Assembly (NCBI RefSeq): GCF_030867095.1
Contig: NC_081827.1
Coordinates: forward strand, 50,779,001 to 50,843,000
Direction of reading: 5' to 3'
From: Alligator mississippiensis
Taxonomy: Eukaryota > Chordata > Crocodylia > Alligatoridae
DNA length: 64,000 nt
Below the pieces are notes generated by a model that saw only the letters and a program-made list of their open reading frames with translations, made no database searches and was not told where the DNA came from. How positions within the stretch are numbered: the stretch's first letter is position 1; each line of letters starts with the position of its first letter. This document shows, piece after piece, positions 4,817 to 61,721 of the stretch. The translations under genes and the position numbers were made by a program.

Positions 4817-4819
4817 ACT

Positions 4820-5052
4820 AGGTGCATCTACATGTGATGCTATGGCAAGGTGCTATGGCAACATAGCATCCACAGGTGTCTACATGTGGCCAGCAGCTAC
4901 TTTGCCATAGTGGTGCACTCCCCTGTAATAGTGCGCCACTATGGCAAAGTAGCTACTAAAAATAACTGCACCACACATACAGTGCAGTACAGGTGGTTAC
5001 TAAAGCACAGCACAGTAACAACGCCACCATAGGGCAACATGTAAACATGCCC
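4820..5052. mobile_element. MITE with GGTGCATCTACATG ends and 3-bp target duplication
   Basis: The left end AGGTGCATCTACATGTG is mirrored by the right end, which reads on the other strand as GGGCATGTTTACATGTTG; the similarity runs on to a shared CTATGG. Both sides are flanked by ACT (4817-4819 and 5053-5055). At 233 bp with no coding potential, it is a non-autonomous DNA element. It shares end sequence and 3-bp target duplication with 8851-9321 and 36100-38349. Confidence 0.75.
4892..4956. repeat. Long hairpin inside the MITE
   Basis: AGCAGCTACTTTGCCATAG on the left pairs with CTATGGCAAAGTAGCTACT on the right. The stem is about 26 bp with two or three mismatches and closes a loop of about 13 nt (CTCCCCTGTAATA). 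It lies near the centre of the 233-bp element. Confidence 0.8.
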
Positions 5053-5055
5053 ACT

Positions 5056-6369
5056 GTGTGGTACTAAATCATGGTAAATTTTGTTAGTAAATGGCAGCTG
5101 CACCTTGAGCCAAGGACAGGCACCTGGTTTTGTTATAGAAATTTTACTAAACAAACAAAGCACACTGGCAAAAATTATTAGAAATTTAAAGGCCAGAAGG
5201 ACACATTTGATCATTTAGTCAAACCTATAGCTTCTGGCAGGACTAAGACACATCTTACTGAAAGGCTTGATGTGCAGGATGAGCTCCTATAATATTGTAC
5301 AAAGAAATGCCAAATACAAATAAAATCCTTAGCCATTATTTGAGGCAAGAAATAATCTGAAATCTTGTGTGCTAAATTTAAATGGGGAGTTTAGCATGAA
5401 CATATTTTGTACAATCCTAGTGATAGCTTTTCCTACTAAGCCATAACTCTTTGCACTCTCCACATAAGTTACACCTAATTCAATTCATTATTTGATGTGA
5501 TACTCGCACTACTTTTCTGAATCCCTACATCTGGCTCATCACTCTCATGACCCACCAAATTCATATATAAATGTGTAATGTCTCTAAAACTTATTAATCC
5601 AGTTTGATTAAGGGAAAATGTTCTTGGTGGAGGAGTATATGAGGCAATTTATGGCTTTTGAGGATGATTAAATGCTGAAGTGAAGCTGAGGCATTTGATA
5701 ATCACAGAAGCTATTTATTGCTGGAATATTCCAAGCCCATGAACATTACTCATATCAAACAACCACTTAAATACATTTTTTTCTTATGTTGTTTGCTGAA
5801 TCTGCTTCTATCTACATATGTGAAAGTCTAAAATCTCTTGGACTAGATAACTTCATAAGGTCTCTTCCAGCCCTACTTTTCTATGACTCTATGATGCAAC
5901 CACTGCTTGACACTTCCCACTGACCATGTCTCATGAGGAACAAGCTTAAGTAAATATATGCAGTAACTCAAAGAAAATGCCAGTTTATTGAAAAACTGGT
6001 CTACAAATAAATAATTGTGAGAGGGAGTTACCTGGCTAGAAATGGATAAGACTAGATAATTCAATGTATCGTTTCTGATTTACACTCATATTGCCATTAT
6101 AAATGAATGGCAAGGGAAATTTTCTACTCACCCCTTTAGTAGGCATTTGAAACTTGTATTAAGCGGCTGAAATCCTGCTTTCCAGACTGTCAGATCTTCC
6201 TCTTAAACTCTAAAATGTTAATATTGCAAAAAAGTAAGGGATATGACATCATTGTGAGAATAATACATCTTCCACAAGTATATGGCACATTTCTCTTTTA
6301 CCTAAGCTAGTGTTACTTAGCCTTGTATCAACCTGCAAACTTGTATCATGTTACTTCCCTCTCTAATAG
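5056..6369. other. AT-rich DNA with a short CR1 tail
   Basis: No gene seen. At about 5836-5895 (+) there is a severely 5'-truncated CR1 3' end: it carries the GGTCTCTTCCAGCCCTAC text followed by the TCTATGACTCTATGA tail repeat that closes CR1 copies. Confidence 0.6.
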
Positions 6370-7170
6370 CAGCACTGGGAACACAGGAAATGCCATTTAC
6401 TGGGTCAGATGGTAGGTTCATTTAGCCCCGTATGCTGTCTACTACATTGGCAGAGTATGGATGTTGAGGGGGAAGGTAAAGAGATCATATCCAGAATCTT
6501 CCATCCCATGCTTCTTTCTCATTACCGCTTCCAGGAATAAGAGGTTTAGGAAGGTCAGATTTCAAGGCTACCATATTCAGAACCCTCTGTTAGACCTTTT
6601 CTCCAAGAAATTACTTAATTCCCTTTTGAACTAGGTTAAGCTACAAGCATCCAAAAGCTCTTGTAGCAATGAGTTCCACTAGTATATGGTATACAAAAAA
6701 ATCCCTTTTTTCAGTTTTAACCATACTACCTAATAGTTTCATTTTATGTCCGCTAGTATTTTCAGAGATGGTAAATAATAAACTATTTTCTCTGCACCAT
6801 TTAATATTTTGTAGAATTCTATCATGTCCTCAAGCATCTATTTTCTAAGCTGAAAAGCACTAGCCTACTTAGTCTCTTTTCATATGGAAGTTCCTCCATA
6901 CCTCTGATCATCCTAGTTACCCTTCTCTGTTTCTTTTCCTGTTTTTCTATGCCTTTTTGATGTATAAGAACGAAAGCTGCACCCAGTATTCAAGGTGTGG
7001 ATGCACAACAGACTTATAGAGGTATAGTGATACTTTCTGTTTGTTTACAATTCCCTTCTTTATAACTCCTAATAATTTATTTGTCTTTTCAGTGTTGCTG
7101 AACAATGAGCTGCCATTTTTTTCGTGAACTGTCTCATTGAGTCCAAAATCTCCTTTTTGTGTGATAACAT

Positions 7171-7892
7171 TGTGACAGGAGGCAAGTGGCAGCCTGCAGG
7201 TGTGGTTAAGGCTGATTATGGAGTCATCTAACCCTGTAGGAAGGCTGGGCTTAGGCAGGACATAAGCCCAGACCTGAATAGGGCCAGCAGTGAGATTTTG
7301 GAGGCTTCTGAGGGAACGTCGGCTCAGCAGGGTGGCTGCAGCTCCTGAAGGCTGGCAGGGAGAATCCAGCCACCTGTTCGGAGATTTAAGAAGAAACTAA
7401 GGGGTGGAGGAGGTTCCTGGGATCAAGGGAGGGGTCCAGAACCCACAGAAAGGTACTGAGTGTGTGGGACCTAGCGAGGGGTCTGGAGTCCAGAGAAAGG
7501 CTGAGTATATGGGACCTAATTTGGGGTCCAGGAGCCCAGAATGGGACTGAGGGTATTGAGGGACTGAGTGTGTTGTGGAACCCAGGGAAGGGCTGAGTGT
7601 ATTGAGGGATTAAGAGTGTGGATGAACAGGTGCGAGTGATTACACCTGCAATGCATGGGGCATGGTGGACAGGCAGAATGGAGCTACACAATATGCCCTT
7701 AAAGCAGAGATCATAGACACCTGGTAGTCATGTGAGAGATCAGATTGGGAAGCCCTGGGGCAGCCTCCTTTATATAAAAAACAATTACAAAAAGGCATGG
7801 CAGGAAAGAGAAGGGATAACTGCTCAATGAGAGTGTGGGTTGCAGGGACCCCAGGGGTTTCATGGCCACCCCTGAAGAGATGCTCTGCCACA
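7171..7892 (+). mobile_element. Solo LTR inside CR1
   Basis: It begins TGTGACAGG and ends TGCCACA, the TG...CA form of an LTR. The flanks AACAT (7166-7170) and AACAG (7893-7897) look like a 5-bp target duplication with one mismatch, and CR1 sequence continues on both sides. It contains a degenerate tandem repeat of about 46 bp (7430-7600) and the text GCATGGGGCATGG (about 7655), which recurs in the LTRs at 41.1 and 12.4 kb. No internal genes accompany it. The class (Gypsy-like or endogenous retrovirus) is unresolved; a 5-bp duplication leans towards Gypsy or some retroviruses. Confidence 0.65.
7430..7600. repeat. Degenerate ~46-bp tandem repeat in the LTR
   Basis: Three or more copies of a unit starting GGGGTCCAG or GGGGTCTGGAG and running through ...GACTGAG...GGGACCTA, with a spacing of about 46 bp. 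Confidence 0.6.
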
Positions 7893-8700: not shown

Positions 8701-8850
8701 GAGTCCTTTTTTAAAAGTTGGAGTTACATTGGCAGGCTTCCAGTCCAAGGCTGTTTTTAACAACAGGCTGCATACTACAGAAAGTATGGGAAAGGTTATC
8801 ATCACTTAATTGTTCTTACCATTTGAAATGGTCACCATTGAGGTAACAGT

Positions 8851-9321
8851 GGGTGCACCTAAATGTGCATATTAATGTGATGCAATAAACTCTGGTGCTT
8901 ATCACACCAGAATTTATTGCTCCCAGGGACAGTGTTTACATGTGCGCCTGGGACTGCAGCACATTGAGCCGAGTTGCATTAGCCCTGTCTGGCAGGGAGC
9001 CCTGAAGGTCATCCTGCCAGCTTAGGGCTACTTCCCCTGACTCAACATGTTGTGGAGGGGTTCGCTAGGGTACAAGGGTGCTTCAGTGTGGGGTTAGGCA
9101 CTAGGCAGCTCCTGCATTGAAGCATACTTGTGCCTGAGCCAGTTGGGGCAGTGTCTACATGTGCACTGCTGCAGAGTTAAAACCTCCATAGCAGGATAGT
9201 ACTTGTATTTACAAGTGTAATTAATTCACTTCGACTAATAGAGGTGCATGTGTTGATGTGTGACATTTACTGCAGAGCTAATTAGTCTACTCTACAGTAA
9301 ATGTCTCATGTAACTGCACCC
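8851..9321. mobile_element. MITE with GGGTGCACCTAAATGTG ends, 3-bp target duplication
   Basis: The left end GGGTGCACCTAAATGTGC is mirrored by the right end, which reads GGGTGCAGTTACATGAGAC on the other strand. AGT flanks both sides (8848-8850 and 9322-9324). The 471-bp element has internal inverted text (TGGTGCTTATCACACCA) and no coding potential. Same family as 4820-5052. Confidence 0.75.
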
Positions 9322-9324
9322 AGT

Positions 9325-14331: not shown

Positions 14332-15086
14332 GGCTAAGTACAGACATTTGAGGGTGTTAGGAGGAGGTTAAATCAATTCAGAATGGCTGCCCAATATCAG
14401 GTAAGCCATCCTGGCTAGCCAAGAGGTTGGAGGTTCAGCAGGCTGGAGAGGATTGGGGGTTCACTGGGGGATGAGGGGAAGGTGCAACACATGGGTGGAG
14501 TGGGAGGAGCAGGTATCACCCACAAGAGGTAGGGGAACAGGCATAACCTGTGGGTGGGGTGGGGTTCCCCCCCAGCAAACTTACACCCCCATCCCTCCAA
14601 CCACCAAGACTTACTTGTTTGGCTCTGGCAGCAGCAAATGCTGATAAAAGTGGCTGCATGCAGAGCAGCTTGTGGGATGGGCGTTGAGAGCACAGGCTGT
14701 GGGGGAGTAAGGTGCCGGGGGTGGGGGTTGGAAATTGATCAGTGTCGGGGAAGAGAGGAATAAAAAGAGAAGCCCGAGGACTGGGGCCAGTGGCTGAGTT
14801 TTCCCAGCTCTGGGGCTACACAGAGGAAGAGGACAGAAGTTCCCTGCACTAGTTTGACCTAAATCAAATGAGTCTGATACTACATAGATCAAGATTTATC
14901 TTAAACTGGGTTCTGCAATTTTTAGACCTGTTGTGTACATGGAACTTCTGTTCAGTTACAGGTTTAGACTGATTGCCTGTCACTGAGACCAGGTCTGTAA
15001 GTGTAAAGTTGGCACCAAGATGAGCTAAGTTTAAATCGGGTGGCTATTTTGAACTGATTTAACCTCCTGAATGTCTGTACTTAGCC
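14332..15086. mobile_element. MITE with GGCTAAGTACAGACATT ends
   Basis: The left end GGCTAAGTACAGACATT is matched exactly by the inverted right end (15070-15086), and subterminal GAGGTTAAATCA...TTCA is also mirrored. The flanking triplets are AAA and AGA, a 3-bp target duplication with one mismatch. The interior is GC-rich (14400-14830) and has no protein signature. Length 755 bp. Same family as 44089, 54514, 55751, 59394 and 60769. Confidence 0.75.
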
Positions 15087-18534: not shown

Positions 18535-20480
18535 AGAATCATAGACAATTAGAGTTGGAAGGGACCTCAGAAGGTCATCTACTACAAAACCCTGCTCAAA
18601 GCAGGACCATCTCCAACTAGATTATTCCAGTCAGGGCTTTGTCAAGCTGGGCCTTAAAAACCTCCAAAGATGGAGATTCCACCACCTCTCTAGGTAACTT
18701 GTTCCAGAGCTTCAACACCCTCCTAGTGAGAAAGTTTTTCCTAATATCCAACCTAAATGTCCCTTGCCACAACTTGAGATCATTGCTCCTTGTTCTGTCA
18801 TCTGCCATCACTGAGAACAGTCTAGGTCCATCCTTTTTGGAACCACGCTTCAGGTTGTTAAAGGCTCCTGTCAAATCCCCCCTCAGTCTTCCATTCTGCA
18901 GACTAAATAAGACCAGTTCTATTAGCCTCTCCTCAGAAGGCATGTGTCCCAACCCCCTAAACATTTTCATTGCCCTCTGCTGGACTCTGTCCAGTTTGTC
19001 CATATCCTTTCTGTAGTGGAGCATACAAAACTGGGCACAGTACTCCAGATGTGGCCTCACCAGTGCAGAGTAGAGGGGAATAATTACTTCCCTCGATCTA
19101 CTTGCAACCAAGGTTTCCTCTAAGGTGTGCACATGTGTGGCCACACACAAGTAAAAATCTTGCCACGCACAAACTTTTTGAGGCTGCGCACCCACCCAGG
19201 GAGGAGCTGGGAGTGGAGTGTAGTGGAGGCACTGGGGCCAGCGTGGGATACTTACCGAAAGTAAGCTCCTCACTCCAGGGCAGGCAGTGGTTCCTCCCCG
19301 AGGCAGGACAGGGGCTGAGGCTGGGGGCTGGCGTGGGCTTTGCTGGCTCTGGGAAACTACTCCGCACTCCCGTATCACCTCAGGGAGTGAGGAGGCACAT
19401 GGCATCAGGGCTGGGGAGCAGAGCAGTTCCCCGGAGCTGATGCAGCCTGCAGAGCAGTTCCCAGCCCCTGTCCCCACCTCGCCATGCCTCTGGGAGTGAG
19501 GAAGCACATGGCATTGGGGCTGGAAAGCAGACCAGTTCCATGGAGCCCATGCCAGCCCCCAGCCCCAGCCCTCAGCTAGGATGACATCTAGGATCGCACT
19601 CGTGAACTGACCCCAAGTGCCGAAGGTTGGGTACATCCATCCTCAATGAATACATCATCTACTAATGGAGGTAGTAAGAACCTATAATTAATGCTGATGA
19701 AGTGGTTGGAGATTCCAAAATAAAGATGCTAAAAACCTGCAAGTATTATTTCTATTATTTTTTGTTAGGGCAGAGAGGACCCTCTCACACCCCACTCCCC
19801 TCCCCAGACATTTTTCTCACACTCTTAAAAAGCTGCAAGACCAGATGAATTTTGTGCTGAAATAAAACACCAATACAGTGCTTACTCAGCCCCCAATGCT
19901 AACTTAGTGGCTCAACTGGTGATATTGTTATACAATAACATGAGAAGCACTGTGCAACTTAAAGGAAAGGAAGATAAATGTTAAATGTGCAACTGGAGAT
20001 GAATTTGGAGCCTATGTAAAATATATATAAATTTGCATTTGTAAAAGGTATCTAACCAGAAAAGCTCTACTTTTCTGCACCATGTTTCAATGGCAAACAA
20101 TATAATTACACTCTCCTTAGGGACTCTTACCGACGGGCTGCGCTGAAAGGGAGAGGTGGGACCAAAGTGGCACGCTCACAGACTGAAGTGGCATGCTCAT
20201 GGACCACTACTCCTTAGAGGAAATATTGCTTGCAATGCTCCTACTAACACACCCCAGTATGCTGTTAGCCTTCATGGCAACAAGGGCACACTATTGACTC
20301 ATATCCAGCTTATTGCCCACTGTAAACCCCATGTCTTTTTCTGTAGAGCTGCTACTTAGCCAGTTGGTCCCAAGCCTGTAGTGATGCATGGGATTCTTCT
20401 GTCCTAAGTGCAGGACATTGTACTTGTCCTTGTTGAACCTCATGAGATTTCTTTTGGCCCACACTGCTGCAAGCCCTTAA
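18535..20480 (-). pseudogene. CR1 LINE C-terminal RT region, antisense, split by hAT
   Basis: The CR1 3' tail is at 18535-18580 (AGAATCATAGA then GTTGGAAGGGACCTC). Reading on the minus strand gives the C-terminal region with LVRPHLEYCAQF, VQQRAMKMFRGL, EERLIELVLFSLQNGRLRGD, LFSVMADDRTRSND and VLKLWNKLPREVVES. This region is open from about 19095 to 18617, so the copy is fairly young. CR1 sequence resumes at 20236 (minus strand: text antisense to CTCCTACTAACACACCCCAG) and runs to about 20480. The gap is a hAT insertion with its own target duplication. The catalytic RT core is missing, so the copy is 5' truncated. Confidence 0.9.
19108..20227. mobile_element. Non-autonomous hAT-type element inside CR1
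   Basis: The left end is CCAAGGTTTCCTCTAAGG; the right end reads AATATTTCCTCTAAGG on the other strand. It is flanked by ACTTGCAA (19100-19107) and GCTTGCAA (20228-20235), an 8-bp target duplication with one mismatch, as expected for hAT. CR1 text is continuous if the element and one duplicate are removed. The 1.12-kb interior has no transposase signature. It contains the upstream part of a 339-codon frame only because CR1 reads out into it. Confidence 0.8.
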
Positions 20481-33849: not shown

Positions 33850-35812
33850 CATCTGCCCCCCAGAAGTGAGGGGGTAGTGTGGTCTGGGATCATTTTGAGC
33901 TGGCAGATGATCCTACATATGCTACCTGCCTGCACTGCTAAGCCCAAACCAGCTGGGGCAAGGGAACGAAACACATGAGAACAATGGGGATGCTGATGCA
34001 TCTCCATAAGCACCACCCACTTGCCCTTGCTCCTCCTCAGCCTGGCACCAGTAGGAGCATGCCCAAAAAGAAGTCCCCCTCTGGCTTCAAAGCCCCCATT
34101 CCCCCCAAAGCAGAGGCAGGCCACTCTGGACCAGTGGGGGAAAGGTGGGCACACGGGGGGGTGTTCCCAAGGCAAGCAAGGTCACCCAGGGCATTGGGGA
34201 GATGCTTGCTCTGGATGGCAAACCCTGCTCCTTTGTTGAGTGGCCAGGGTTCAGGCAGCTTATGGCCCCATCCTACCAAGTGCCTACATGCACCACCTCC
34301 AGCAGGACAGTGATGCCCTCCCTGTATGAGGCCTGCAGGGAGACTTGAGGGAGGAACTGTGCAAAGCAGGTCAGGAAGTGGCCTTACACTTCACCTCGAA
34401 CATCTGGAGCAGCTGGGGTGGAGATCACGCTTATCTCTCCCTCACAGGGTATGGGTGCAACCACTCAGGCCGTTGGTAGGCTCTCCTTCAAGCCAAGGTG
34501 ATGGATGAGTCCCACACGGCAGCAGAGATCATGGGGGCCATGAACTGCATCATTCAGGGGTGGTTTATTGGGCAAGGTGAGCTCACCCATGAGTTCATGG
34601 TCACTGACAATGGGGCCAGTATAGTCAAGGCTGCCCGTGATGCCAACTTTGTTGGCATCTGCTGTGTGGCATGCAAGCTGCACCTCATAGTGAAGGACAC
34701 CTTGGAGGAGGACAGGGCTGCCAGGGAGGGTGCCATCACAACCAGCCACCTGATTTCAAAATGCAGGAAGGTGGTGGGCTACTTCCACCACAGCATCAAG
34801 CGGGGCAAGATGCTGCAGGTCAAATAGGCAGAGATGAAGATCCCACAACACAAAATCCTGCAGGAGGTGGAGAATCGGTGGAACTCTACATAACTGATGC
34901 TCAAAAGGCTGGTGGAGCAACAGAAGGCCTTCCATTAGATGGCCTTGAATGGAGAGATTGGGATAAGTGACCCACTTAACAAAGTGGAGTAGGATACCAT
35001 CTCCCAGATCATGGTCATCCTCAAGCTCTTCCTTGAGGGCACTGAAAGCCTCAGCAGTGGTTATGCCCTCCTGAGTCAGGTGATCCCTTTAGCAAGGGAA
35101 CTTGAAAATGAAATGCACAAGTTCCAGGGGATTGATGTTCCTGGCTTGGGCAAGCCGCTGTCACCAGAGGTGCAGGCACTGGTGAAGTGGCTGAAGGAGG
35201 GCATGAAGAAATGCCTAGATCCATTGCAGTCTAGTATGGTCCATGCGCTGATGACTATGTGTGACCCAAGGGTGAAGGGGAGCATATGCAGAAGCAAAAC
35301 TCTGGAGCACTGGATGGAGGTCCTGGTTAACAGAATCTGGGAAACAGAAGGGCACAGGTGGGGGGGGGGACATGGAAGAGGGGGATCCACTGTCCTGTGC
35401 CAGCATGCCATCCACTAGCTAGTCTCCTCCTCCACCACAGGTGCTGCCAATGTAGGCCAAGGTCATGGCTTCCATGGTGGGGTCCAGAGGCACCAGACTC
35501 CACCATCAAGCAGGTAGCATGCAGGCCTTGGTGGCTGCCTATCTCACTGAGGATGTGGAGCCACTGCTGTGCGACCCCTTGGCCTACTGGGCAAGCCGCA
35601 GTCAGATGTGGCAGGATCTGGCCATGGTTGCCCAGGAACACCTGTCCTGTCCACCAACCAGCGTTCTGAGTGAGCAGGTGTTCAGCATTGCTGGGGATGT
35701 TGCGGCACCCCACCACACCTCTTTGGATCCTGGTTTGGTGGAGTAGCTGGTGTTCCTCAAGGTGACCCTCCCGCTGCTGGGGTTCCCTGAGTTCCAGGTG
35801 CAGATGGAGTGA
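33850..35812 (+). pseudogene. hAT transposase, ZBED-like, frameshifted
   Basis: A BED zinc finger comes first: VVW.HFELADDPTYATCLHC-like text (about 33870-33940), then its histidine part HMRTMGMLMHLHKHH (about 33975-34020) after a shift. The hAT core follows: EMLALDGKPCSFVEWPGFR (about 34200-34255), PSLYEACRET then a stop (about 34318-34346), LHFTSNIWSS, HAYLSLTGYG and MDESHTAAEIMGAM (34501), FMVTDNGASIVKAARD (about 34595), CVACKLHLIVKDTL (about 34664-34705) and an ALARELENEM-like helix region near 35090. The C-terminal dimerisation domain lies in another frame: DPLAYWASRSQMWQDLA, LSCPPTSVLSEQVFSIAG (about 35643-35695), LVFLKVTLPLLG (35750-35783). This resembles ZBED-type hAT proteins. At least five stops or shifts make it non-functional. 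It lies in the sense direction of the element. Confidence 0.88.
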
Positions 35813-37129
35813 GTGCCACTCTTCTCACTCCATCCTCATCTATTTCCTTTTGGCTTCTGGTTTCTGAACCATTTAATGCCCTGCTGTCAGAGCTGGAGGT
35901 GGCACTCACTGCTGGCATGCAGTGCAGGCAAGAAAGTTAGCAAGTGAAAATGGAAATGGAGGTACCTGGGGGCGAAGGACAGGCTGGGGTCAGGGAGGAA
36001 GGGGGGGGTGTAGCAGGTAAAAGTGGAGAGAGACTTAGGGAATCAGATGTCCAGCAGGCTGTAGTGTGTCATAATTCCAATGTCTGTATTGAATCCATGG
36101 GTGTGTCCACATGTGCAAGCTTGTGCGTTTCCAGCACCTCAAATAGAAGCAGTACAAATTTGAGCTGTGGCTTTTTGCCTCAGCACACATGCTCGGACAT
36201 GCACTTTGTTGTGGAGCAAATTGTGCCACTTGGGGCAAAATAATCCTGCCTGGCTCCTCCCAGATCTGCAGCCAGGGGGAGCTAGAGCCCAGGTCCAGCA
36301 TCTGTGCTGTCCCCAGCAGTATAAAAGGCTGTCCTGTCCTGGCCCCATCAGTACAAATAAGTGTCCCGGCAAGTACCTCAGGGCTACTCGCTCTCAGGAG
36401 CTTCTGGGGCCCAGCCAATTGGTACCCAGGGACACTACCCCTTGTGCCAGCTGCACTGCTGAAGCAGCCCTAAGAGTTCCCTGCACCCTCTACCCACTGC
36501 AGCAGTCTGGCCGTGGGGGCTGCTGCCTGGCTGAGACCTGCTGTGCAGCTGCCAGACCCAGATGGGAACTGCACAGCCAGAGAGGCATCTGCCCCTCTGG
36601 GCCAGCTGCCAGTGGGCTGTGGCTGCAGGATTGGCCTTTGTGGCTGCAGGGTTGGCCACTACTGCCATGTGTACCCCTGCCTGGCTATCTGGGCAGCTAT
36701 CACCCAGAAGATGTTCCGGGTGTGGTGGCCTGCTTTGAACTGTCAAAGTATGTCCTCCTGGCCCCCTCCTGGCCCCATTTGGCCAGGAGGTCAGCCACCT
36801 TCAGCTGGGTCCAATATGCTAGCTCTGAGCAGGCAGGGTCCTGCCACTGGCCTCCCTAGCAGGAATTCTGGTGTTCCCTTTTGGAAAACTGAAAAGTCTC
36901 TGATAAAAAAATCCCAAAGTCACTCTGTAAAATACCCTGAAATCCATATTCCTCCACAATTAAAACAAAACACCACTATATATAGAGAGAGAGTGAGAGA
37001 CAGAGAGACAGCAATCAGTTGGGTATGTTTTATTGATATATCTACAGTGTTAAAGCAAGTTGGACACCTAGCAGTGTCTCTATCATCATAAAATGAATTC
37101 TAAATACCTATAAGTTTTGCTGTTCCCAT

Positions 37130-37262
37130 AGGGGCTACAGCCCCCACCAGGGGCTACAGACCCCACCAGAGGTTACAGTCCCCCAGAGGGGTAACAGCCC
37201 ACCCACATAGGCTACAGCCCTCCATCAGGGGTTACAGCCCCCCCAACAGGGGCCAAATGGCC
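37130..37262. repeat. Tandem array of ~24-bp GGGGCTACAGCCCCC units
   Basis: About five or six diverged copies of GGGG(C/T)TACAG(C/A)CCCCCACCA occur in a row. Each unit is itself partly palindromic (GGGGCT...AGCCCC), so each could form a small hairpin. Confidence 0.75.
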
Positions 37263-37639
37263 CCCTGCAGGGGCCGTCACTCCCCTGTAGGGCCCACATG
37301 CCCCACCCCAGCCACCCAATTGCTGCCTCACCTGGCCCCATCCCTCACCAGCTCCTGCAGCCCCCCTGATGGCTAACCCACCCAGGCACTTAAAAAAAAA
37401 AGAACCCCTACTTACAGAGCAGGGCCTATGGGGGCTCCAGGGCCTCCTGGCAGAGCCTCTTCAGGCAGCACAGAGGAGTGGGGGGCAGCAGGGCCTGGGC
37501 TGGGGCTGCTGGGGCTGACACCTGGCCCTGCACTGTGCAGGTGGGGCACCAGTGACCCTGACAGCAGCTAGAACTGCCAGTAAGTGCTGGGGGTTGTTTT
37601 TGGGGTGTTTTTTTTTGTAGGGATGCTGGGGTAGGGGTA

Positions 37640-37930
37640 TGGATTAGGGGCCTCAGAGGGCTGGGGGGGTTGGGGCCAGGTGGGGAAGGGATCGGGGGGC
37701 TCAGGGGGCAGGTGAGGGGTGGGGCCAGGTGACGCAGGGATCAGGGGGCTCAGGGGGCTCAGGGGCATGGGGCCAGGTGAAGCAGAGATCAAGGGGCTCA
37801 GGGGGCAGGCAGGGGGTGGGGCCAGGCAGGACAAGAATTAGGGGGGGTTCAGGTGGATGTTGGGAGGGAGCTGAGCAGGGCAGGGATCAGAGGGGGTTGG
37901 GAGGCAGGCAGGGGATGGGGCCGGGGGGGA
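37640..37930. repeat. G-rich minisatellite
   Basis: Repeated words GGGATCAGGGGGCTCAGGG and GGGGCAGG(T/C)(G/A)(A/G)GGGGTGGGGCCAGG recur every 45-60 bp for roughly five copies. There are many G-runs of three to six bases on this strand, so quadruplex formation is plausible. Confidence 0.65.
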
Positions 37931-38720
37931 AGGGATGGGAGGCTTGGGGAATGGGCGGGGCCAGCGGGGGTCCCCTCCATGGTCCCCTCCCTCATCCCCC
38001 CAACACTTTACTTACTGGCACTGAAGCCCGGGTCCAGCTCCCTGCTGCTGGCATGCTGCCTACCCTGCATGGGCAGGCAGCATGCTTCAGCACCAGGGTG
38101 AGGGCCAACCACAGAGATGCTCTGGCAGCCAGAGTATCTCTGTGGAGGACCCAGCCTCTGGTTGCCTGCTCCGCTTTTTTTCATTCCATTTTTTTTGACC
38201 CCTGGATATCCAGGGGTCTAATTTTGCTCCTGCGCTGCAAACCTGCAGTGGGGGGAAACTTTTCCCATTCCCACACATGCCACTTAAAGCATCTTAAAGG
38301 GGTTTGAGATGCTGCAAGAGACATGTGCAGGCTCATCTGGATGTGCCCCATGAGTTTCTGTATCCAGGAGGTTGAAGAAGTAAAGTTCATAGGTTCATCT
38401 GTGAAGAGTGGTTCATAAATTCTGTTTGAGGATCAGGCCTGAGAGACTGGAGACAGGTAGTTAGGTGTTCTTGTCTTTGATAGATTTTAGGTGTGTGCTC
38501 ATTCTGTTGTGCAATTATTGCTTGGTGTCTCCCATGTATTTTCCATCAGGGCATTTGGTGTCCTGATGGAGATTTGTATTGTTAAGATATCTCCATATTG
38601 GAGATATGGTTGGCAGGTTTTGTATGTCTTGTCATGGCATGGTCTATGTCCATTTGTTGCCCTGTGGAGTAAGGCCAACTCTCAGGATCTCAATATTGTG
38701 CTGTTAGATAGAAGGGTGTG

Positions 38721-40486: not shown

Positions 40487-40801
40487 TTTACAAACCACTT
40501 TTAACAGATGAGCCTATGAACTGCACTTCATGAACCTCCTAGGTACAGAAACTCAGGGACTCAATATAGACATTGGAATTATGACATCTGACTCCCCAGG
40601 TACCTCTCCTCAGGTACCTCTCCACTTTTATCTCCTACATCACCCTTCCCCCAAGCCCAGCCTATTTCTCACCCCCTTATGCCTCCATTTCCATTTTCAC
40701 TGACTGGCTTTCTTGCCTGTATTGCATGCCAGCCTCTGGTTTCTTTACTATTCATTCCATGCAGAAAGAGCACACACACCAACTGCAGGTGCTTCCTCAG
40801 C

Positions 40802-41137: not shown

Positions 41138-41808
41138 CCTGTCCCCAATCAGCTGACTGGAAGGAGGCAGAGCTCTGGGCACATCTAAGCCCCAGGGCTG
41201 GGACTGGCAGGGAGAGTTCTCTGGCAGTTGCTGGAGAAGAAGCTCCAGCAGGAAAGGAAAGAAAGGCTCTGTGACAGTTTGGCTGTCTGAGATGCTAGTG
41301 CTACTGTGCTGCCTACCTGTTGTTATTTAAAGTGGTGGACACAGATGAGGCTGTAGGGGAGGAGGAGACCTCATTGGGGCATACTACCATGTCATGTAGA
41401 GGTCCCAGCACCAGTGAGGGCACAGGGAAAAGGGGTATAGAAAGCCCAGCAACAATAGAAGGTAGACCGAGACCTCATTACAGGGATGATATCAATATAC
41501 TATCTGCAAGGCATGGGGCATGGTAAGGGATGGTTGGAGCCACATATCCTACCCGTAAGGCTTAGGGTGTCCCCCTGAGGCACCTGCTTAGAGCAGGTCC
41601 AAGCAAGGGGTCCAAGAACCTATAGGGTGTAGTGGGGTCCATTAGGACTGTGACTGAGCTGAGACTTGAGGGCAGCCTCCCTATCAATGATCTTTTCCAA
41701 CAAGATGTGGTGGCAGGTGAGAAAAGAAGGCACCTGTAGGGTGGAGCTGGCATGGTGACAGGGCCCTAGGGGTATCATGGCCATCTCTAGGAACCCTACT
41801 CCATGACA
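41138..41808 (+). mobile_element. LTR copy, 5' truncated
   Basis: It matches the minus strand of 12435-13625 from GCCTGTCCCCAATCAGCTGAC through AGCCCCAGGGCTGGGACTGGCAG, GATGAGGCTGTAGGGG and GACCTCATTGGGG to CCCTAGGGGTATCATGGCC and the terminal CCATGACA (41801-41808). The first 80-100 bp (TGTCACAGGGCACTA...) are missing; the Penelope-like end abuts here. The hAT tandem array starts directly after it. No internal genes. Confidence 0.7.
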
Positions 41809-42365
41809 AAGTGTAGTTTCCCAGAAAACCCTACACCTATCTCCTTGAAAGCTGGCAGACTTCATGGACTCATAAGGGGCCAGCATCCCTGCTGTTTTCA
41901 TCCCACTCTGCCTTAACACACACACACACAAAGTCACACATGTCACAAGTTTTGCTCTGAACAGTTTGAGGTGTGGTTTCCCAGAAACCCCTGCACCTAT
42001 CTTTTTGAAAGGTGGCAGGCTTCATGGCCTTAGGAGGGGCTACCACACCAGCTGTTTTCATCCTCCTGTGCCTTCACACTCCCACAATCATGAGTTTTGC
42101 TCTGAACAATTTAAGGTGCTGTTTCCCCGAAAGCCCTGTACCTATCTCCTTGAAACTTGGCAGGCTTTGTGGTCCCAGAAGGGGCTAACATCTCTGCTGT
42201 CTTCAGCCCGCTGTGTGTTCACACTCACAAGTGACACAAGTTTTGCTTTCAAGACTTTGAGGTGCTTTTTCCCAGAAACTTCTGCACCTATCTCCTTGAA
42301 CTTGACAGGCTTCATGGCCTCAGAAGGGGCTACCATCCCTGCTGTTTTCATCTGAATCAGGCAAG
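41809..42365. repeat. ~145-bp tandem repeat near the hAT 3' end
   Basis: Four diverged copies start at about 41816, 41966, 42118 and 42264. Each runs TTTCCCAGAAA(A/C)CC(C/T)TGCACCTATCT, CTTGAAA..TGGCAGGCTTCATGG, AGGGGCTACCATCCCTGCTGTTTTCATC, then TTTTGCTCTGAACA..TT.AGGTG. Subterminal tandem arrays of this kind are common in non-coding parts of hAT elements. Confidence 0.85.
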
Positions 42366-44088: not shown

Positions 44089-45458
44089 GGCTAGGGATAG
44101 ATATTACACATAAACCAGTTCAAGTGATCAGAAACTGGTTTAAACCTGTAACAGAACAGACATTCAGTACACATAAACCAGTCTGAAAATGGCTGAAACT
44201 GGTTTGAGATAAACCTGGTTGAATGTAGTATCAGACTCAACTGATTTGGCTCAAACCGGTTTATACAATGTCTGTCCCAGATCCCTTGTTGGTTTAAGAT
44301 AAATCAGACTCCCCCAGCCTCCCGGCATGCTCTCTGGGCTGGGTGGAACTCTGTTCTCTGCTCCAGTGAGCTGGGCTGGCCCCTCCCCTCTGCTCTCTAG
44401 CCAGAGCAGGAGCAGGGTGTAGCTAGATGCTGGTCTGCCATGACCCCAGAGGTAAATTCCTCTCTCCATCCCCTTTCCCCAACTCCCCTCCACTGGCAAA
44501 CCCTGGGGACTGTAGCTGCTGTTTGCCAGCCCCAACTGTACCTCCATGGCTTGCCTGCAGCCAGGCAGGGGCAGAGTTGATTTCTCCCTCTGTCCCTTCT
44601 CTCCCATGGAACCCTTGGGGGTTTGGCTGCAGTCTCTGTGGCTTGTCTGCAGCCAGGCAGGGAGGGGATTAATTCCACAGTGGGTCCCAGAGGTGGAGGG
44701 AGAGAGGCAAGCTAGTCCCCTGTGTGCAGATCCTAGTCCTGCACCTGTGAGCCCAGAGCTAATACCTGCAGTACCAGACTTCCAAAGGTGGGAAGTGTTG
44801 GCAAAGATTTGACAATCATCACACATGCTGGAGATGTAGTTAAAAGAAGTTGCAGACAGCTTCGCCAAAGAATGCAGAGAGCTACAAACCTAAACAAAGC
44901 CTTTATGAATGCCTGGCTGTAAGGAGATACTCTGCCCTTAGGATCAGTAAAAATAATTATTGTCTTCCTGGATTACATTTCAAGTTAGACTAAATTGTGT
45001 TTGCTTTGTTTTACTTCATCTTATCTTAGGCAAGATTTTTGGTAGTTCCCTGTTGTATGCTTTGCAAATTGCTGTGTTCAATACATGCTTGGTTCAGAGA
45101 AAGGACTTTTTCCCCATCCCCACTCTTCAGTCTAGCAGCAGTTGCGCCCCCACCCTCCCTACACTGGTGGCTGGCTTCCCATGTATTGTGCTAGCCCTGA
45201 CTGGTGCCTGGCCATGCCCCCTCTGCTTCAGAGAGAGCCTTGGAGGGTGTCTCCTTCCCTGCCCTTTGGCAGTGGCTGGCAGGCATGCTCTAGCACCCCC
45301 AGCTTCTGGCTTGAGTCACTGCAGGCATGTGGCTTCATTTTCTAGTTTAACAGAGTATGTCTGTTCAGTGATTAATCGATTTAGGCTGTGCAGTTTAGAC
45401 TAAGGTGCAAAGAGTGAATCGATTCAGGCTTGGGCTTTTTGAATATCTGTCCCTAACC
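44089..45458. mobile_element. MITE-like element with GGCTAGGGATAGATATT ends
   Basis: The left end GGCTAGGGATAGATATTACA and the inverted right end GGTTAGGGACAGATATTC are flanked by AGA on both sides (44086-44088 and 45459-45461). Subterminal text has several AACCAGTTT/AAACTGGTT words that can pair. The GC-rich centre (44300-44800) matches the centre of 54514-55293 in the opposite direction (CTCCCCCAGC, AGCTGGGCTGGCCCCTCCCC). Length 1370 bp. The 205-codon frame on the minus strand has no transposase motif. Confidence 0.75.
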
Positions 45459-47891: not shown

Positions 47892-50800
47892 CTCCATGCT
47901 GCAGGACCAATCTTTATCACCATCCTCTCTCAAGCTTTTCTTTGCGCTGAAAGGAGTTTGCCTTTAATGCCCAAGGTAGGTCCTGAATGACTACTTCTAT
48001 TTATCAGCATGGCAAAAACGACTGAGACAGCAGCAATGTAAATTTATTCACATCACCCCATCAACACATCTCAACTCTGAGTTAGAACCTCTTCTAGGAG
48101 TGAAAGTATAGTTTGCCTTAGCCCAGTCTTTTACAATTTTGCATTGGTACTGCCAGTAAAGGTGGAAATCAGAGCAAGCAGTGGGAATGGGATAGCTCTT
48201 TTGATGTGGGCACATGTTGGAATGTCTAATATCAGATTCCTACAAGTCATGCCACTGAAGTTTCCCAATGGCCCTCTTAAACCACTAGCAGTCTTGGAGT
48301 CATCCAGGCCCCTCATCAAATCACTAGTTTACCTTAAACAAATTTCAGTAGTACTGAAGAACTCTTAAGATACACGTATTCACCTTCTTCTCATGCTGGC
48401 TCCATCCAAATATTAATGTAATATTAAAATGTAATTGAAATAATCTAAATTAAAAAGGATTTCCAATTATCTGAAAGCAGTCAGAGACTGCCAGCAGGTT
48501 TGTTTTCTCCATTTATATGGAAAATTATACTTTTACCTACACACTATAGTGAGGTTTCCTGGGATGATATTAAAGGCCCAAACTTATTGGTAAATGGATA
48601 TTACATATAAGCACAAACCCATTTGAAATATATTTGTTTTAAGCTCTCTCTCTTTTGACAGCTCTTCAGCCATGTAGATGCACCCCTTTAAAAGCAATAA
48701 TTTCTAAGATGTTTACAGAGCAGAAATAATGATAGAAAAGGAACAAAAAAACACCCTGTCAATAAGTTTAATCCAAGGGTCTGTGGTGCAGAAATAAACA
48801 GGGAGAAATCAACTAATTACAGTCTTTTACTGTATTTATCTCTGATCTAGTTTATTCTCTCACTATTGATGCACTCCTAGTGAAAATACAGGTGTGGGGA
48901 AGGACACAGAGAGAAAACTAAACACTCCCATCAGAGCTAAACACTAACACCAAACTCCTAGTTCCTTGTCTAGGAAGTCTGATTTTAGCAGTTTCAAGAA
49001 AGAAAATGGGGTTTTAGATGCCTTCAGATGTTAATAGATTTTTGTGTTGTACATTTCAAGAGCCTGAAAGCAAATGCCTGACAACATATAGTAAGAGACA
49101 TAAGGCAAAATAGAATCAGATTTGATGTGAAACAATGCAGAAAGTGTTGAAGATGGGTATGGAATTATACTTAGCAAGTTAGGCATGGAGAGAAACCATT
49201 TGTGAGATCTCTAAGGAACAGATTGTGCCTGTCAAAAGCACTGAGTTTAAGTGTTGTTATATTGCATGCCTTCCACATTCAAAGAAGTGAATGTTCCCCT
49301 ATCCTTTTAAAGAGTCCCAAGGTAGTCCAATTTGCATGGAAATGTTTACACATCTTTCAGAGGAAATCAGCTAAACTCAGTTTTTCACTACGTTGAGGTA
49401 AAAGTCAAGTTGCCATTTTGCTATGTATGGTAATTAGCCTTTTTGGTTCCTAGCACCTACCATAAATTAATGCATCTCAAGCTTACATTAACTTGCATCT
49501 TTTGCTCTCAAGAACAACCTGCAGAACAGCCTTTATTTGGCTTTGGTCCTGCAAAGCTATCATTTTACCTATTTTTAAGAACTGTTACCAGATTCTTTAC
49601 ACTGGAATCACTAAATAAATGAATAAACACTATCTGCACAATGCACATTAGAGCCTTGATCTAGCAGTTTAAAAAGCTCTTACCCAGCTCTGGGTGGCAC
49701 ATGCCATAGGGGGATTGTTTGGTTGCAAAGAGTCAGCATCATAAGCACTCTTATGACATCCCTCGTCACTGCCAAAAGCATAGGAATTGTAGCTAGGGGT
49801 AAATGGCTTGTCTACGGTCCTGCAGCAGCATGGGGGTAGAGCAGTAGGGAACAAACACAAATATATGCACACCATATTTTTTAAGTTGGCTGAATCTCTT
49901 TAATACAGTTCGGGTCTCATAGCCATGGTTTCCATCAATCCCAAATGTCAAAGGAAAATAAATAGCTTATGGTTTGGGGGAGGGAGTTGGAAATCACTAT
50001 GACTGACTTTTAACCCTACTGACCATTTTACATTTCTAAGCCTCTCTTTACTATCAATGACTGCTGGGAAATTCCCCTTTTAGATCAATATGGGGATACA
50101 AATATTTGGATTTGCCTTGACATATAGAGCCCCCATGATTCAGGGGAACCCTCAGTGGTGGACAGCAGGACCACAACAGCCAACTCTGATTCCTTTATTG
50201 CTTGCGATTTATTAATTATATATTTCAGTCACTGAAAGAAGTTCAAACACTGGAAACTAAAAACCACACATTTTTATAAATACTATGACTGATTCCATGA
50301 TTTATTCATGAGGTTATGAGGTACTGTTGGGTTTAGCAATCACGCCATAAATAGGGCAATAAAAGCACAGACCAACACCTTTCACTTACCTAGTAAGTAA
50401 CTTCATGGTCAGATTTGTATGGTATACTGAGCAGAAAGCCATTTTCTATCACATAATGAAAATATTTAGAAAACCACTAGAGCAATAAGAGTTATAGAAC
50501 TCCTAAAACTGTAATTGTCTTATTCCATTATTAGAGATGAAAATATTGGGAAAATGTTGGAGTTTCTCAGAAAATAGGGAGTTATAACATCAAAAGCCCA
50601 GGTTGTTAAAAAAGATATTGATTACTAAACTGTCATTTAAAAAAAGAAAAAATAGAGGGAAAATGATTTATATCACTTACACAATCTTTTAACATTTGTT
50701 TTTCCCATCTACCAAACTTGGTTACAGGAACATAGGGAACCAACATGCCATACTAATTATACTATATTTTGTATAATTTATGAGAACCTTTCTTTTAGTT

Positions 50801-51145: not shown

Positions 51146-52235
51146 TGTGGCAGGGCACTAGTAGTCCCTGCCACTTTAAGGACTGAGCCGGGGGGGGCAG
51201 GTGCCTAATAAGGGCGGCCATTTTAAGGCCCAGCTCCCTGAACTGAGGGCAGTTTGTGATCAGCCAGCAGAGTAGAAACATCTCTCTGCTGAGCTCTGCC
51301 AGGAACACTGTGGAGGACAGGATGAGGCTATGGGGGTAGAGGAGGCCTCATTTGTCCTGAGTAGGGTGATCATTCATCTGGTTTTATAGAAGACAGCCCA
51401 GTTTTCTGCTACTCTGTCCTCTGTCCTTTTGATACGAAACTGGACACCTTTTTGTCAGACTGGTGGAAGTCTGCAGAGGAAAACAGAGGGCATAAAGGCG
51501 TCCAGTCTCGTAATAATAGGACAGAGAACAGAGTAGCAGAAAACATGGCTGTCCTCTATAAAACCAGATGAATTGTCATCCATTCCTGGGTAAGACATGA
51601 AACTGCACCCTGCCAGGCAAAGCCGGGGGGGGGGGTATGATGGGGCTCCCTGTGGCAGGGGAGTCCCCAAGAAATGCCAGGTCAATTGCCTTACTGGCAA
51701 AAGGCAAGTGTGGAGCACCTTGTAACCCCAGCCCCCACATCCTTGGTGGGTTCAACTGGTCCAGGGGAGCCCAGGCTCATGGGAGTCCTGAGACAGGGCT
51801 GAGGTTGGAGGAGGGACCTGGAGCAGCACCTAGGCTCTGCATGAGTCCTGTGGCTTCAGGGACCCTGAGAGGGGGCCAGGTATGGCTATGGCCACCTGAG
51901 CCTCACAGGGAGGCAGACCCCAGTGAGCCCCAGTGAGGGGGCCAAGGGCTTGGAGCCCAGTATGTGTTTGTTTATCCATTCATGTATGTGTTATGAATGA
52001 CCCAGTGTAAACCACTGGTGGATGCCATTTACAAGGCTTGGGCCGCAGTGTAGCGGTGGAATGGAGCTGCGGAGATCCCCCTAAAAGTCGGGGTTCAAAA
52101 TGGGCAACCTCCCACCTGATTAACATCCTAATACTATGACATCAAGGCATGGAAAACGAGTGAGGTAGGCAGCTAGCCCATAGACAGGAGGCAGGCTGGT
52201 GTTTGCACTGGGTGTGAAAGCTTGTCCCTGTCACA
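51146..52235 (+). mobile_element. Solo LTR with exact 5-bp target duplication
   Basis: It starts TGTGGCAGGGCACTAG and ends CTGTCACA, so it has the TG...CA form. GTAAG lies at 51141-51145 and again at 52236-52240. It shares the opening and the GATGAGGCTATGGGGG...GGCCTCATTTG block with the LTRs at 41138 and 12435. It is interrupted by a 221-bp hairpin element at 51364-51584. No retroviral genes accompany it, so it is most likely the product of LTR-LTR recombination. Confidence 0.82.
51364..51584. mobile_element. Hairpin MITE inside the LTR
   Basis: Two arms of about 83 bp (51366-51448 and 51497-51580) are near-perfect inverted copies: CATCTGGTTTTATAGA.GACAGCC and TTTTCTGCTACTCTGT on the left are mirrored on the right. 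The loop is about 48 nt. The flanks CCTGAGTA (51356-51363) and CCTGGGTA (51585-51592) form an 8-bp duplication with one mismatch, pointing to hAT-type insertion. Confidence 0.82.
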
Positions 52236-54513: not shown

Positions 54514-55293
54514 GGTTAGGTACAGACAGTCAAAAAGCCTTAGGCTGAATCAATTCAGTCTTTGCAGGTTAGTCTACTTATACAGATTAAATTGAAACAG
54601 AAGTGAACAGACATTTACCACATGCCTGCAGTGGCTAAGGCCAGAAGCCAGGAGGCACAAGAGCATGACTCTTTGGCTGTGTTTATTTCCTCTTCCTGCT
54701 GCCCCTGAAGTCTCTGGGATTTATGGTCCAGAATTACAGCAGCAGGACTCTGCAGGGTTGCTCATCACTTCCTCTTCCTGCTTCCAGGTGCCTCTGGGAT
54801 TTGTAGTCCACAGTTGCAGGCAGCAGTAAGTTTGAGTGGAAGGAGGGGTGTTTAACTCTCCTCCCTGGGCCCAGACTCCAGCTGGGGTTTGCCTGGGGCA
54901 GGGGGCAGTCCCAGCCCCCACTGCAGACTGGGCTGCATCCACATCCAGGTTTGCATGCCTGCCCTTGTCAAACATCCTTTTGCTCCAGCTAGGGAGCAGA
55001 GGGGCAGGGCCAGCCCTGCTTTCTAGAGCAGACAGCACAGTTCAGCCCAGGGCTGGAAAACATGCTGGGGGACTGTGATATAACTTGAACTAGGAAGGGG
55101 TCTGGAACAGAAGTTTCATAAACTGGTTGGATCTAAATCAGTTAAATCTAATACTACATTCAACCAGGTTTATCTTAAAACAGTTTCAGCCATTTTGAAA
55201 CTGGTGTATGTACACTAAGCTTCTATTCTGTTACAGGTTTAAACCAGTTTCTCATCACTTAAACTGGTTTGTGTGTAACTTTTGTTCCTAGCC
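54514..55293. mobile_element. MITE with GGTTAGGTACAGACA ends, TTA duplication
   Basis: The left end GGTTAGGTACAGACAGTC and the inverted right end GGCTAGGAACAAAAGTTAC are flanked by TTA on both sides (54511-54513 and 55294-55296). The subterminal right part (AAACTGGTTTGTGTGTAAC...) matches the left part of 44089-45458 inverted, so the two are the same subfamily in opposite directions. The interior has two similar CCTCTTCCTGCT blocks (54690 and 54770). Length 780 bp, no protein motif. Confidence 0.78.
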
Positions 55294-55371
55294 TTAGTGT
55301 TCCTACTGAACCTTCCTGAGAACTCTGCAACATAGAAGTGTACAGGGAATTCATCAATCATCTTCTAGGCT

Positions 55372-55746: not shown

Positions 55747-55750
55747 TCTA

Positions 55751-56897
55751 GGCTAAATACAGACAGTCAAAAAGCCTGAGGTTGAATCAATCTCTGCAGG
55801 TTAGTCTAAACTGTGCAGGTTGAGCAGTGAGCAGACTTTGATTCTTGAAATGTAGCCACATACCTGCAGTGGCCCAGCCAGAAGCTGGGAGTAGGCCTGT
55901 GTGAAGCAGCTAGTATTCACTTCGTATTTGGATTCAGTCGATTCAGGAGACAGTGATTCGATTTAGTGATTTGAATCACTGTCCTGAATTGATTCAGCCG
56001 AATCTGATTTGGAGATTTGGTCACCGCTGAATCAACCAAATCTCCAAATCAAGCAGGACCCATTCCCTGCCTGCTCTCCCAGCCCCCCTCCCATCCCCCC
56101 GCTACCAGCAGAGGCCCCGATGGCAGCTGCAGCATCCGGTGAGTGCGGGGCTTTTTTTTTTAAGAACTGGGAGCTGTGGCGGGGTGGGCAGCCATTAACG
56201 GGGCTGGGAGAGTGGGCAGGGGTCAGGGGGTGCTCAGGGTGGCTGAGGGAGCAGGCAGGTCATGGGGCCTGGGGGGGGTCCCCCTCCCTCCTCCATCCCC
56301 CCCACCCCGCCCCACCACACACACACCTTACTCACAGGCATGGAGTCCAGATCCAGCTCCCTGCAGCAGCGGTGAGTGGGGACTGCCCAAATCTCCAAAG
56401 CTCTCTGAATCTTTTCCGAATTGATTCGGAGAGCTTCGAATTGATTTAGACCTTTTTAGTGGTCTCCCGATTCAATTCGGATTTGGAGATTCGGACACCG
56501 AATTGGGCCGAATCCCCTCCAAATCAAATCAGCACCCGAAGCTTTGCACAGTCCTACTGCGGGGCACTAGAGCACACTTCCCTGCTTGGCTGGAGGAGAC
56601 AGGTTGGTCCAAGGCCACCCACCCTGTGGGGCAGGGGTTTGAAGGGAAGTGTAAAGCATCCTGGAGTCCTGGAAGACTATGAGTTAACTTGAATCTGGGG
56701 AGGATCTGACACAGAATTTCAATAAACTGTTTTAGCCTAAATCAGTTAAGTTTGATACTACATCCATCTAGGTTTATCTTAAATCAGTTTCAGCCACTTT
56801 GAAAGTGGCTTATGTGCACTGAAATTCTGTTGTGTTACAGATTTGAACCAGTTTCTGATAACTTATACTGTTTTATATGTAATTTCTATCCCTAGCC
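55751..56897. mobile_element. MITE with GGCTAAATACAGACA ends, split by a hAT element
   Basis: The left end GGCTAAATACAGACAGTC and the inverted right end GGCTAGGGATAGAAATTAC are flanked by CTA on both sides (55748-55750 and 56898-56900). The parts outside 55892-56556 match the element at 54514-55293 (CAAAAAGCCTGAGGTTGAATC; CAGTTTCAGCCACTTTGAAA). About 480 bp without the nested insert. Confidence 0.8.
55892..56556. mobile_element. Non-autonomous hAT element (GGCCTGTGTGAAGC ends)
   Basis: The left end TAGGCCTGTGTGAAGC and the inverted right end TAGGACTGTGCAAAGC agree at most positions. Subterminal regions are full of GATTCGGA/TCCGAATC and CAAATCTCCAAATC words, mirrored on the two sides. The flanking 8-mers agree only partly. 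The end GGCTGTGCAAA resembles the 10-kb hAT at 32620, so the two may be related. The interior is GC-rich with no transposase. Confidence 0.75.
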
Positions 56898-56900
56898 CTA

Positions 56901-59390: not shown

Positions 59391-59393
59391 ATA

Positions 59394-59677
59394 AACCAGG
59401 TACAGACATTACACTTTTACTGGTATAAGTGATTGGAAACCAGTCTATACCTGTAACAGAAATGGAGTTTGGCACACAAAACCACTCTATACCAAAAACA
59501 GAACAGAAGTTCAGGACAGCCTGGTTTAAAAAGGATGAAACCTGGTCTAAAATTTGCTTCCCCCTCCTCCCCCCACCCCCCGGGCAAATATGTTTTGTTT
59601 GCTACAAATTTAACCTACGCTGCTTGCAAAAAAAACATTGATTCCACCTCAAGCTTTTTAAATGTCTGTACCTAGCC
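59394..59677. mobile_element. Short MITE of the GGCTAGGTACAGACATT family
   Basis: The left end AACCAGGTACAGACATT and the inverted right end GGCTAGGTACAGACATTTAAA are flanked by ATA and ACA, a 3-bp duplication with one mismatch. Length 284 bp; a C-rich stretch in the centre. Confidence 0.7.
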
Positions 59678-59680
59678 ACA

Positions 59681-60765: not shown

Positions 60766-61395
60766 ACAGGCTATGTACAGACATTCAAAGAGGTCAGGGA
60801 GAGGCGTGACTGAGTTAAAAATGGTCACCTGATCTCAAGTAAGTCAGGATGGGGGGAGTTTGAGGATAGCAGTGGGGCAAGCAGGCTCTGAGACAGGGGA
60901 TCGGTGGGGCAGGTGACATCCATGGGGGGGGAAACAGGGAATTGGGGGCCAAGTGGTATCTATGGGGATATCAAGGGGGCAGGCAGGGTTTGTAGAAGGG
61001 ATCAGGGAGATAGGGGAGTCTGCAAAGGGATTGCAGGGGCATACAGGGTCTGCAAGGCATTGTTGGGATCTGGGGTTTGGTGGGATCAGAGGGCTGGGGA
61101 GCTCTCTTCCGTACTCCCTGGGAACATGGGTTATTTTTAGCTCCCCAAACCCCCTTATCTCCAGATGAACAATCCCCACTGTGCAAACCTACCCTACCCT
61201 CCTCCTGCCCCTCCCACCACCTAACTTACTTCCTCAGCTCCCAACATCAGTGAACAGTGATAAAACCAGCAATGGGAGAAGCTTATAGGATGATGGAGTG
61301 TGTTTGGGGGGTGGGGGGCAGCTTCCCTTCTGGGAGGGGGTTGTACATCTGGGATGGGGAAAGAGGCTGGAGAGGGCAGGTAGGAAAAGTGCAGC

Positions 61396-61420
61396 CCTGG
61401 GGCTGGGGCTGGGGCTGGGG
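61396..61420. repeat. GGGGCT hexamer tandem run
   Basis: Four copies of GGGGCT in a row inside the MITE. Confidence 0.9.
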
Positions 61421-61458
61421 CAAGTAACTTGGCTTTCCCACCCCTAGGGCTTCACTGG

Positions 61459-61602
61459 GAACTGTATAGAAATTCAAGACAGTTAGATCAGTCTAAAAAT
61501 GGCCAAACTAATATAAGTTAGACAACCTCAGAGGTAGGGTTAACTTGGATCATGTCGGCCATTTTTAGACTGATCTAACTGTCCTGAACTTCCATACAGT
61601 TC
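61459..61602. repeat. 46-bp-arm hairpin inside the MITE
   Basis: 61459-61504 (starting GAACTGTATAGAAATTC, ending AAAAATGGCC) is the reverse complement of 61557-61602 with about three mismatches; the loop is 52 nt. The arm text TTAGATCAGTCTAAAAATGG resembles a subterminal region of the family, so it may mark an element fused to an inverted copy of itself. Confidence 0.85.
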
Positions 61603-61721
61603 TCACTTAGATTGACCTAACTAGGGATCTAAGTCTAAGGGCTGCATCCAGCCAAACTAAATTAGATTGGGTGGCTATTTTTATGTGATCTAACCTCCCT
61701 GACCAACTGTATGTATTCACA

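Follow-up and report, generated by a model that had tools for sequence, protein, structure and literature searches.

Two alligator families of short elements with GG-starting inverted ends and 3-bp target duplications, probably non-autonomous members of the PHIS superfamily

A 64,000-nucleotide stretch of the Alligator mississippiensis genome (contig NC_081827.1, positions 50,779,001 to 50,843,000; the whole stretch is called the window below) holds nine elements with GG-starting inverted ends between short duplicated flanks, which raises the question of what kind of transposase moved them. An earlier note on this DNA had divided the nine into two families, here called group 1 and group 2, and had taken the variety of their flanking triplets as an argument against ordinary PIF/Harbinger. 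We find that both groups are probably non-autonomous families resembling miniature inverted-repeat transposable elements (MITEs), belonging to the PHIS superfamily (PIF/Harbinger and its kin) and moved in trans; the evidence supports membership well for group 2 and makes it likely for group 1. This reading rests on the 3-bp duplication, on a family of the same genome (HarbA) that encodes the PIF/Harbinger transposase domain PF13359, on the likeness of the HarbA end to the group-2 end, on a Y-N-R target register shared by group 1 and HarbA, and on the published ends and duplications of PHIS elements. The target site is somewhat looser and longer than the textbook one.

The 3-bp target duplication

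All nine elements, and their division into two families, were borne out by a motif scan and by inspection of the ends (Table 1). Seven of the nine have identical flanking triplets; the other two (AAA/AGA and ATA/ACA) differ at a single base, as the earlier note had read them. For the elements starting at 60769, 4820 and 36099, the claimed duplication was in view when the right end was placed; the other six right ends were located from the end motif, at 0-4 mismatches, and give four exact triplets and two with one mismatch. The junction previously placed at 36100 with ATG stands, and a start at 36099 with CAT, shifted by one base, is equally valid, both flanks reading CATG.

In the genome-wide collection (L-numbers denote genome loci), right ends were picked by similarity alone. 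The group-1 set comprises 49 loci, not counting L001 and L029 (the loci of the window's own copies) and seven repeats of later loci; 4 of the 49 had no right end, 7 had a weak one and 38 were used. For group 2, a usable right end was present in 16 of 30 loci, one being the window's own copy, and the right-end consensus was built from hand-picked candidates, making this set less clean than that of group 1. Along the 3-bp diagonal, the group-1 flanks match in 27, 25 and 22 of the 38 copies, while other pairings of flank positions give 3-16. The matched bases amount to 74 of 114 against 39.6±5.2 on shuffling of partners, and the exact triplets to 13 against 2.2, neither value being reached in 20,000 shuffles; the remaining triplet pairs match at two bases (11), one base (13) or none (1). 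The group-2 diagonal has 12, 9 and 11 matches of 16 (other pairings 1-9), with 32 of 48 bases matched against 16.2±3.0 on shuffling (0 of 20,000 shuffles as high) and 5 exact triplets against 1.05 expected (18 of 20,000 as high), the rest matching at two (7), one (3) or zero (1) bases.

Joined flanks of 58 copies were compared with fetched genome DNA, and informative relatives were obtained for three. The element at 36099-38348 is inserted in a repeat, another copy of which in the window runs uninterrupted across the site (Table 1); L023 and L055 also span it, L023 with one and L055 with two single-base gaps close by. The group-1 copy L028 (flanks AAG/AAT) has ungapped empty relatives in L088 (39/50 identical) and in L038 and L039 (33/40), the last two sharing one duplicated stretch and therefore not independent. 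For the 36099 element and L028 alike, the duplication is exactly three bases long. The empty relative of the group-2 copy L075 is a CR1-like piece in the window (18748-18639, minus strand) with a one-base gap, so that the right end of L075 is either misplaced by one base or carries an extra one, and the site agrees with 3 bp only after a one-base adjustment. The joined flanks of L041 and L052 matched only themselves, and those of L058 gave a 26-base match at chance level. The 3-bp target duplication is genuine in both groups: the flank statistics and the ungapped empty sites bear out what had been concluded from nine elements.

Table 1. Elements of groups 1 and 2 in the window, and the empty site related to one of them
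Feature	Position	Strand	Ends and remarks	Flanking triplets
Group-1 element E1	14332-15086	.	ends GGCTAAGTACAGACATT	AAA / AGA
Group-1 element E2	44089-45458	.	A end left, B end right	AGA/AGA, duplicated
Group-1 element E3	54514-55293	.	B end left, A end right	TTA/TTA, duplicated
Group-1 element E4	55751-56897	.	B end left, A end right	CTA/CTA, duplicated
Group-1 element E5	59394-59677	.	284 bp, short	ATA / ACA
Group-1 element E6	60769-61718	.	right end much degraded	ACA/ACA, duplicated
Group-2-like element	4820-5052	.	233 bp; ends AGGTGCATCTACATG / GGGCATGTTTACATG	ACT/ACT, duplicated
Group-2 element	8851-9321	.	471 bp	AGT/AGT, duplicated
Group-2-like element	36099-38348	.	2250 bp; ends GGGTGTGTCCACATG / GGGCACATCCAGATG	CAT at 36096-36098 and 38349-38351, duplicated
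Paralogous empty site of the 36099-38348 insertion	40495-40586	-	80/92 identical, ungapped	

Target sites and anatomy of the two groups

Counted over the 38 group-1 copies (left flanks, right flanks), C stands at -6 (26, 26), Y at -4 (34, 32) and at -3 (31, 28), and R at -1 (32, 30). The group-1 target is thus the palindrome C-N-Y-[YNR]-R-N-G, with a Y-N-R triplet in 26/38 left and 23/38 right flanks. Its exact duplications are TGA (3), CAG (2), TTA (2) and ATT, ATG, TGT, CTA, CTG and AAG (one each), and TWA accounts for only 6 of the 38 left triplets. In the 30 left flanks of group 2, C is found at -4 in 17, A at -3 in 14 and T at -1 in 17, and farther out T at -11 in 18, A at -10 in 17 and T at -7 in 18. 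ANT makes up 9/30 of these left triplets and four of the five exact duplications (AGT 2, ACT 2, CTT 1), none of which is TWA. The positions reported for both groups were picked after inspection, and the single-position tests are uncorrected for that choice. That the triplets extend beyond TAA and TTA, as seen in the window, holds genome-wide.

Group-1 ends are 17 bp long (GGCTAGGTACAGACATT), with a variant starting GGCTAAG in E1. The A end is common to E2, E3 and E4 over about 200-320 bp (78-83% identity), the B end being shared more weakly, and E1 has 121-138 bp in common with these three (72-78%). Each end of E1 is 1 mismatch from the end motif, and its first 69 bases have at least 39 other matches in the genome (87-93%). 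The right end of E5 is a perfect match to the motif; the left end of E6 is 1 mismatch from it, and the right subterminal part of E6 is 84% identical to E1 across 37 bp. E3-type copies are about 810 bp long with 54% G+C, and the longest reading frame of their consensus is at most 113 codons. They diverge from this consensus by a mean of 10.0% (8.0-13.5%, 18 copies), a lower bound for the family, as the 18 were drawn from the best matches to E3. By this divergence the copies look old and dead, and the family may be older still. The interior of E2 (44420-45270) has at least 39 other matches in the genome (75-87%), of which 23 cover nearly its full length, and represents a separate subfamily with greater divergence. 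On these matches, captured host DNA was rejected as its source, although the places were not checked for group-1 ends. The interior of E4 has no match among the other copies compared.

Group-2 copies are mostly about 460 bp long (range 318-524 in 16 copies), with the left end GGGTGCATCTACATGTGCATATTAATG and the right end GGGTGCATCTACATGAGACATTTACTG; the first 90 bases of the element at 8851-9321 have at least 39 other matches in the genome (82-94%). The elements at 4820 and 36099 are similar to group 2 in their first 15 bases and differ in inner sequence. No Pfam family was found at E 0.01 in five reading frames, one each from E2, E3 and E4 and two from the 36099 element.

Other repeats lie nearby. 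The repeat that received the 36099 element is just downstream of a probable hAT transposase relic (34480-35746, plus strand), in which the C-terminal dimerisation domain PF05699 is found at 35456-35746 (E 3.4e-9) and the upstream frames 34480-34827 and 34993-35418 have no Pfam match. The CR1-like piece related to L075 belongs to a LINE relic at 18617-19642 (minus strand), recognised by eye as 3' coding sequence and with no Pfam match, and a second LINE relic at 2272-2667 (plus strand) matches RVT_1 (E 2e-8). A 218-bp palindrome with 91-nt arms (86% complementary) at 51364-51610 stops 14 bases short of a group-2-like end (CATGAAACTGCACCC) and is possibly a further fold-back element. A perfect GGGTGCATCTACATG end lies at 48671-48685 (minus strand), with no partner identified, and three to four direct repeats (145-160 bp spacing, 68-88% alike) occupy 41783-42352.

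Harbinger-type transposases and the source of the two groups

A profile search of the alligator's own genome gave at least 150 matches to PF13359 (DDE_Tnp_4, PIF/Harbinger) above the cut-off, these being the best 150 scored of 2,994 first-look candidates. One family, HarbA, is represented by the loci L090 and L091, which are 78-85% identical across long stretches and whose proteins score 72.3 and 94.9 bits, respectively (cut-off 24.8). Of the remaining pieces scanned, L092 also passes the cut-off, a piece of L089 falls short of it at 18.4 bits, and the L091 frame lying upstream gave no match. The 3' end of HarbA was taken as the downstream stop of the L090/L091 homology (L091, read inward, GGGTGCGTGTAGACAACATGGGCATTAATG). 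In the best 40 of 183 candidates for this end, itself included, the match begins at base 1-9 with one exception. Seven of the 40 sit 1.3-1.7 kb from one of the 150 listed transposase matches, against 0.015 expected by chance; L090 and L091, from which the end was defined, account for two of the seven. The consensus from 20 hand-picked of the other 38 places, with 60 bases read, is the GGG-starting GGGTGTGTGTAGATGACATGGGCATTAATG.

Of 22 HarbA copies, each read on one side, 15 have C at -4, 16 have Y at -3 and 17 have R at -1; the flanking triplets are Y-W-R in 12 and TWA in only 5. A family with a DDE_Tnp_4 transposase and GGG ends thus adjoins triplets other than TAA and TTA, and the earlier argument from such triplets against Harbinger does not hold. 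Group 1 is in the same Y-N-R register, with Y at -3 and R at -1 together in the 26 left flanks counted above. The HarbA end resembles that of group 2, with an alignment score of 29.5 against a shuffled mean of 13.8 (sd 3.5, z 4.4; 0.13% of 3,000 shuffles as high), in a comparison tested after the likeness had been noticed. The link between group 1 and a Harbinger-type transposase is inferred. A DDE transposase from longer copies would bind the GG-starting ends, excise the element and join it across a 3-bp stagger, repair of which would produce the 3-bp duplication; Harbinger-type transposases of the same genome may have moved groups 1 and 2 in this way.

Several observations weigh against assigning both groups to PHIS. 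One or no base matches in 14 of the 38 group-1 triplet pairs, for which reason some group-1 right ends are probably misplaced. The three group-1 ends compared with the HarbA end show no significant likeness (z 0.2-0.4 over 40 bases, -0.3 to 1.6 over 30). The 5' end of HarbA was not found, and its flanks are known from one side only. No transposase was seen in any copy with group-1 ends. Among 4 x 39 positions of group-1 and group-2 ends, none lies within 100 kb of the 150 transposase matches (nearest 105 kb), which is a weak test limited to the best 39 of each list. The ANT-favouring target of group 2 is unlike that of HarbA.

The genome-wide collection of ends proposed in the earlier note upheld the duplication and did not yield a longer copy with the same ends and a transposase. 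No transposase-bearing copy with exact group-2 ends was found, and no group-1 end (up to 4 mismatches) occurs within about 3.5 kb of the transposase copies L089-L092. Six stretches near these copies have 4 mismatches to the group-2 motif, none of them at a homology boundary; only the point at which the L090/L091 homology ends gave the likeness to group 2. The transposase piece found in the group-2 locus L070 is not within the element there. Position 569 of the L093/L091 stretch was considered as the left end of HarbA and rejected, since L086 shares sequence on both sides of it. For a second Harbinger family, HarbB (L089), neither end was reached; a boundary at 2053 of the L089 downstream query was set aside as an insertion that we take, from the look of the sequence, to be CR1-like. 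Two separate repeats were met in these loci: an 820-bp interspersed repeat of another family (L093, 910-1730), with nearly the same two ends in at least 39 other places (9,457 candidates), and a sharp-edged 1.1-kb repeat with many copies (L092, about 4607-5717), taken as an LTR from its TG...CA ends.

Chompy elements are MITE-type elements of crocodilian DNA, and MITE-like elements are abundant in this crocodilian genome; it is conceivable, if on balance doubtful, that one or both groups have already been named as a Chompy family. A less probable alternative is that only group 2 is Harbinger-type and that group 1 belongs to another superfamily with 3-bp duplications (Zator, Academ or a branch of CMC). 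The dissimilarity of the group-1 and HarbA ends and the failure to find a transposase-bearing group-1 copy speak for this alternative; the GG start and Y-N-R triplets common to group 1 and HarbA, the palindromic group-1 target and the many Harbinger-type transposase matches in the same genome speak against it, and CMC ends usually start with CAC. That the ends are a chance or repeat-within-repeat pattern with coincidental triplets is extremely improbable: three window right ends were placed with the duplication in view and 14 group-1 pairs agree poorly, but no shuffle reached the matched bases of either group and the empty sites are ungapped.

Comparison with published PHIS subgroups

Placing both groups in PHIS agrees with the published range of that superfamily, whose ends start with GG or AG and whose duplications are TWA in PIF/Harbinger, ANT in Pangu, CWG in NuwaI and C|TNA|G in NuwaII (Han et al. 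2015, PMC4482050). Both crocodilians and turtles are recorded as having Harbinger-like elements (PMC9179366). Both groups have GG-starting inverted ends. The ANT, CWG and TNA classes of Han et al. (PMC4482050) likewise counter the earlier argument, and a 3-bp duplication other than TWA does not speak against a Harbinger-type element. Assignment of either group to one published subgroup is not established, group 2 coming nearest to ANT. The group-1 target fits none of the published classes (TWA, ANT, CWG, TNA) exactly; TWA, CWG and TNA occur inside its wider Y-N-R set. Two well-populated vertebrate families allow the PHIS target preference to be read base by base, and should a group-1 transposase be found, it could be asked which protein change relaxes TWA to YNR.

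PIF/Harbinger elements and Tourist-like MITEs resemble both groups in their GG-starting inverted ends, 3-bp duplication and short copies without recognisable genes, and a DDE_Tnp_4 transposase is present in this genome. They differ in the duplication: TWA, the narrow definition, describes neither group 1, with its few TWA triplets, nor group 2. Pangu has the ANT duplication, which group 2 favours, and AG or GG as the first bases of its ends; no vertebrate is among the species in the Pangu section of Han et al. (PMC4482050), and the fit of group 2 is statistical. NuwaI and NuwaII, with CWG or C|TNA|G targets and GGG or GG ends (PMC4482050), have counterparts in the CAG, CTG, TTA, TGA and CTA triplets of group 1. 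In group 1, however, a single family combines these classes; the outer base that varies least is C at -6, with C or T at -4, and the targets as a whole are neither CWG nor C|TNA|G. Tentatively, group 1 could represent an undescribed PHIS lineage whose transposase recognises the extended palindrome, a relaxed target holding TWA, CWG and TNA together; such a lineage would be a link between the PIF/Harbinger and Nuwa specificities.

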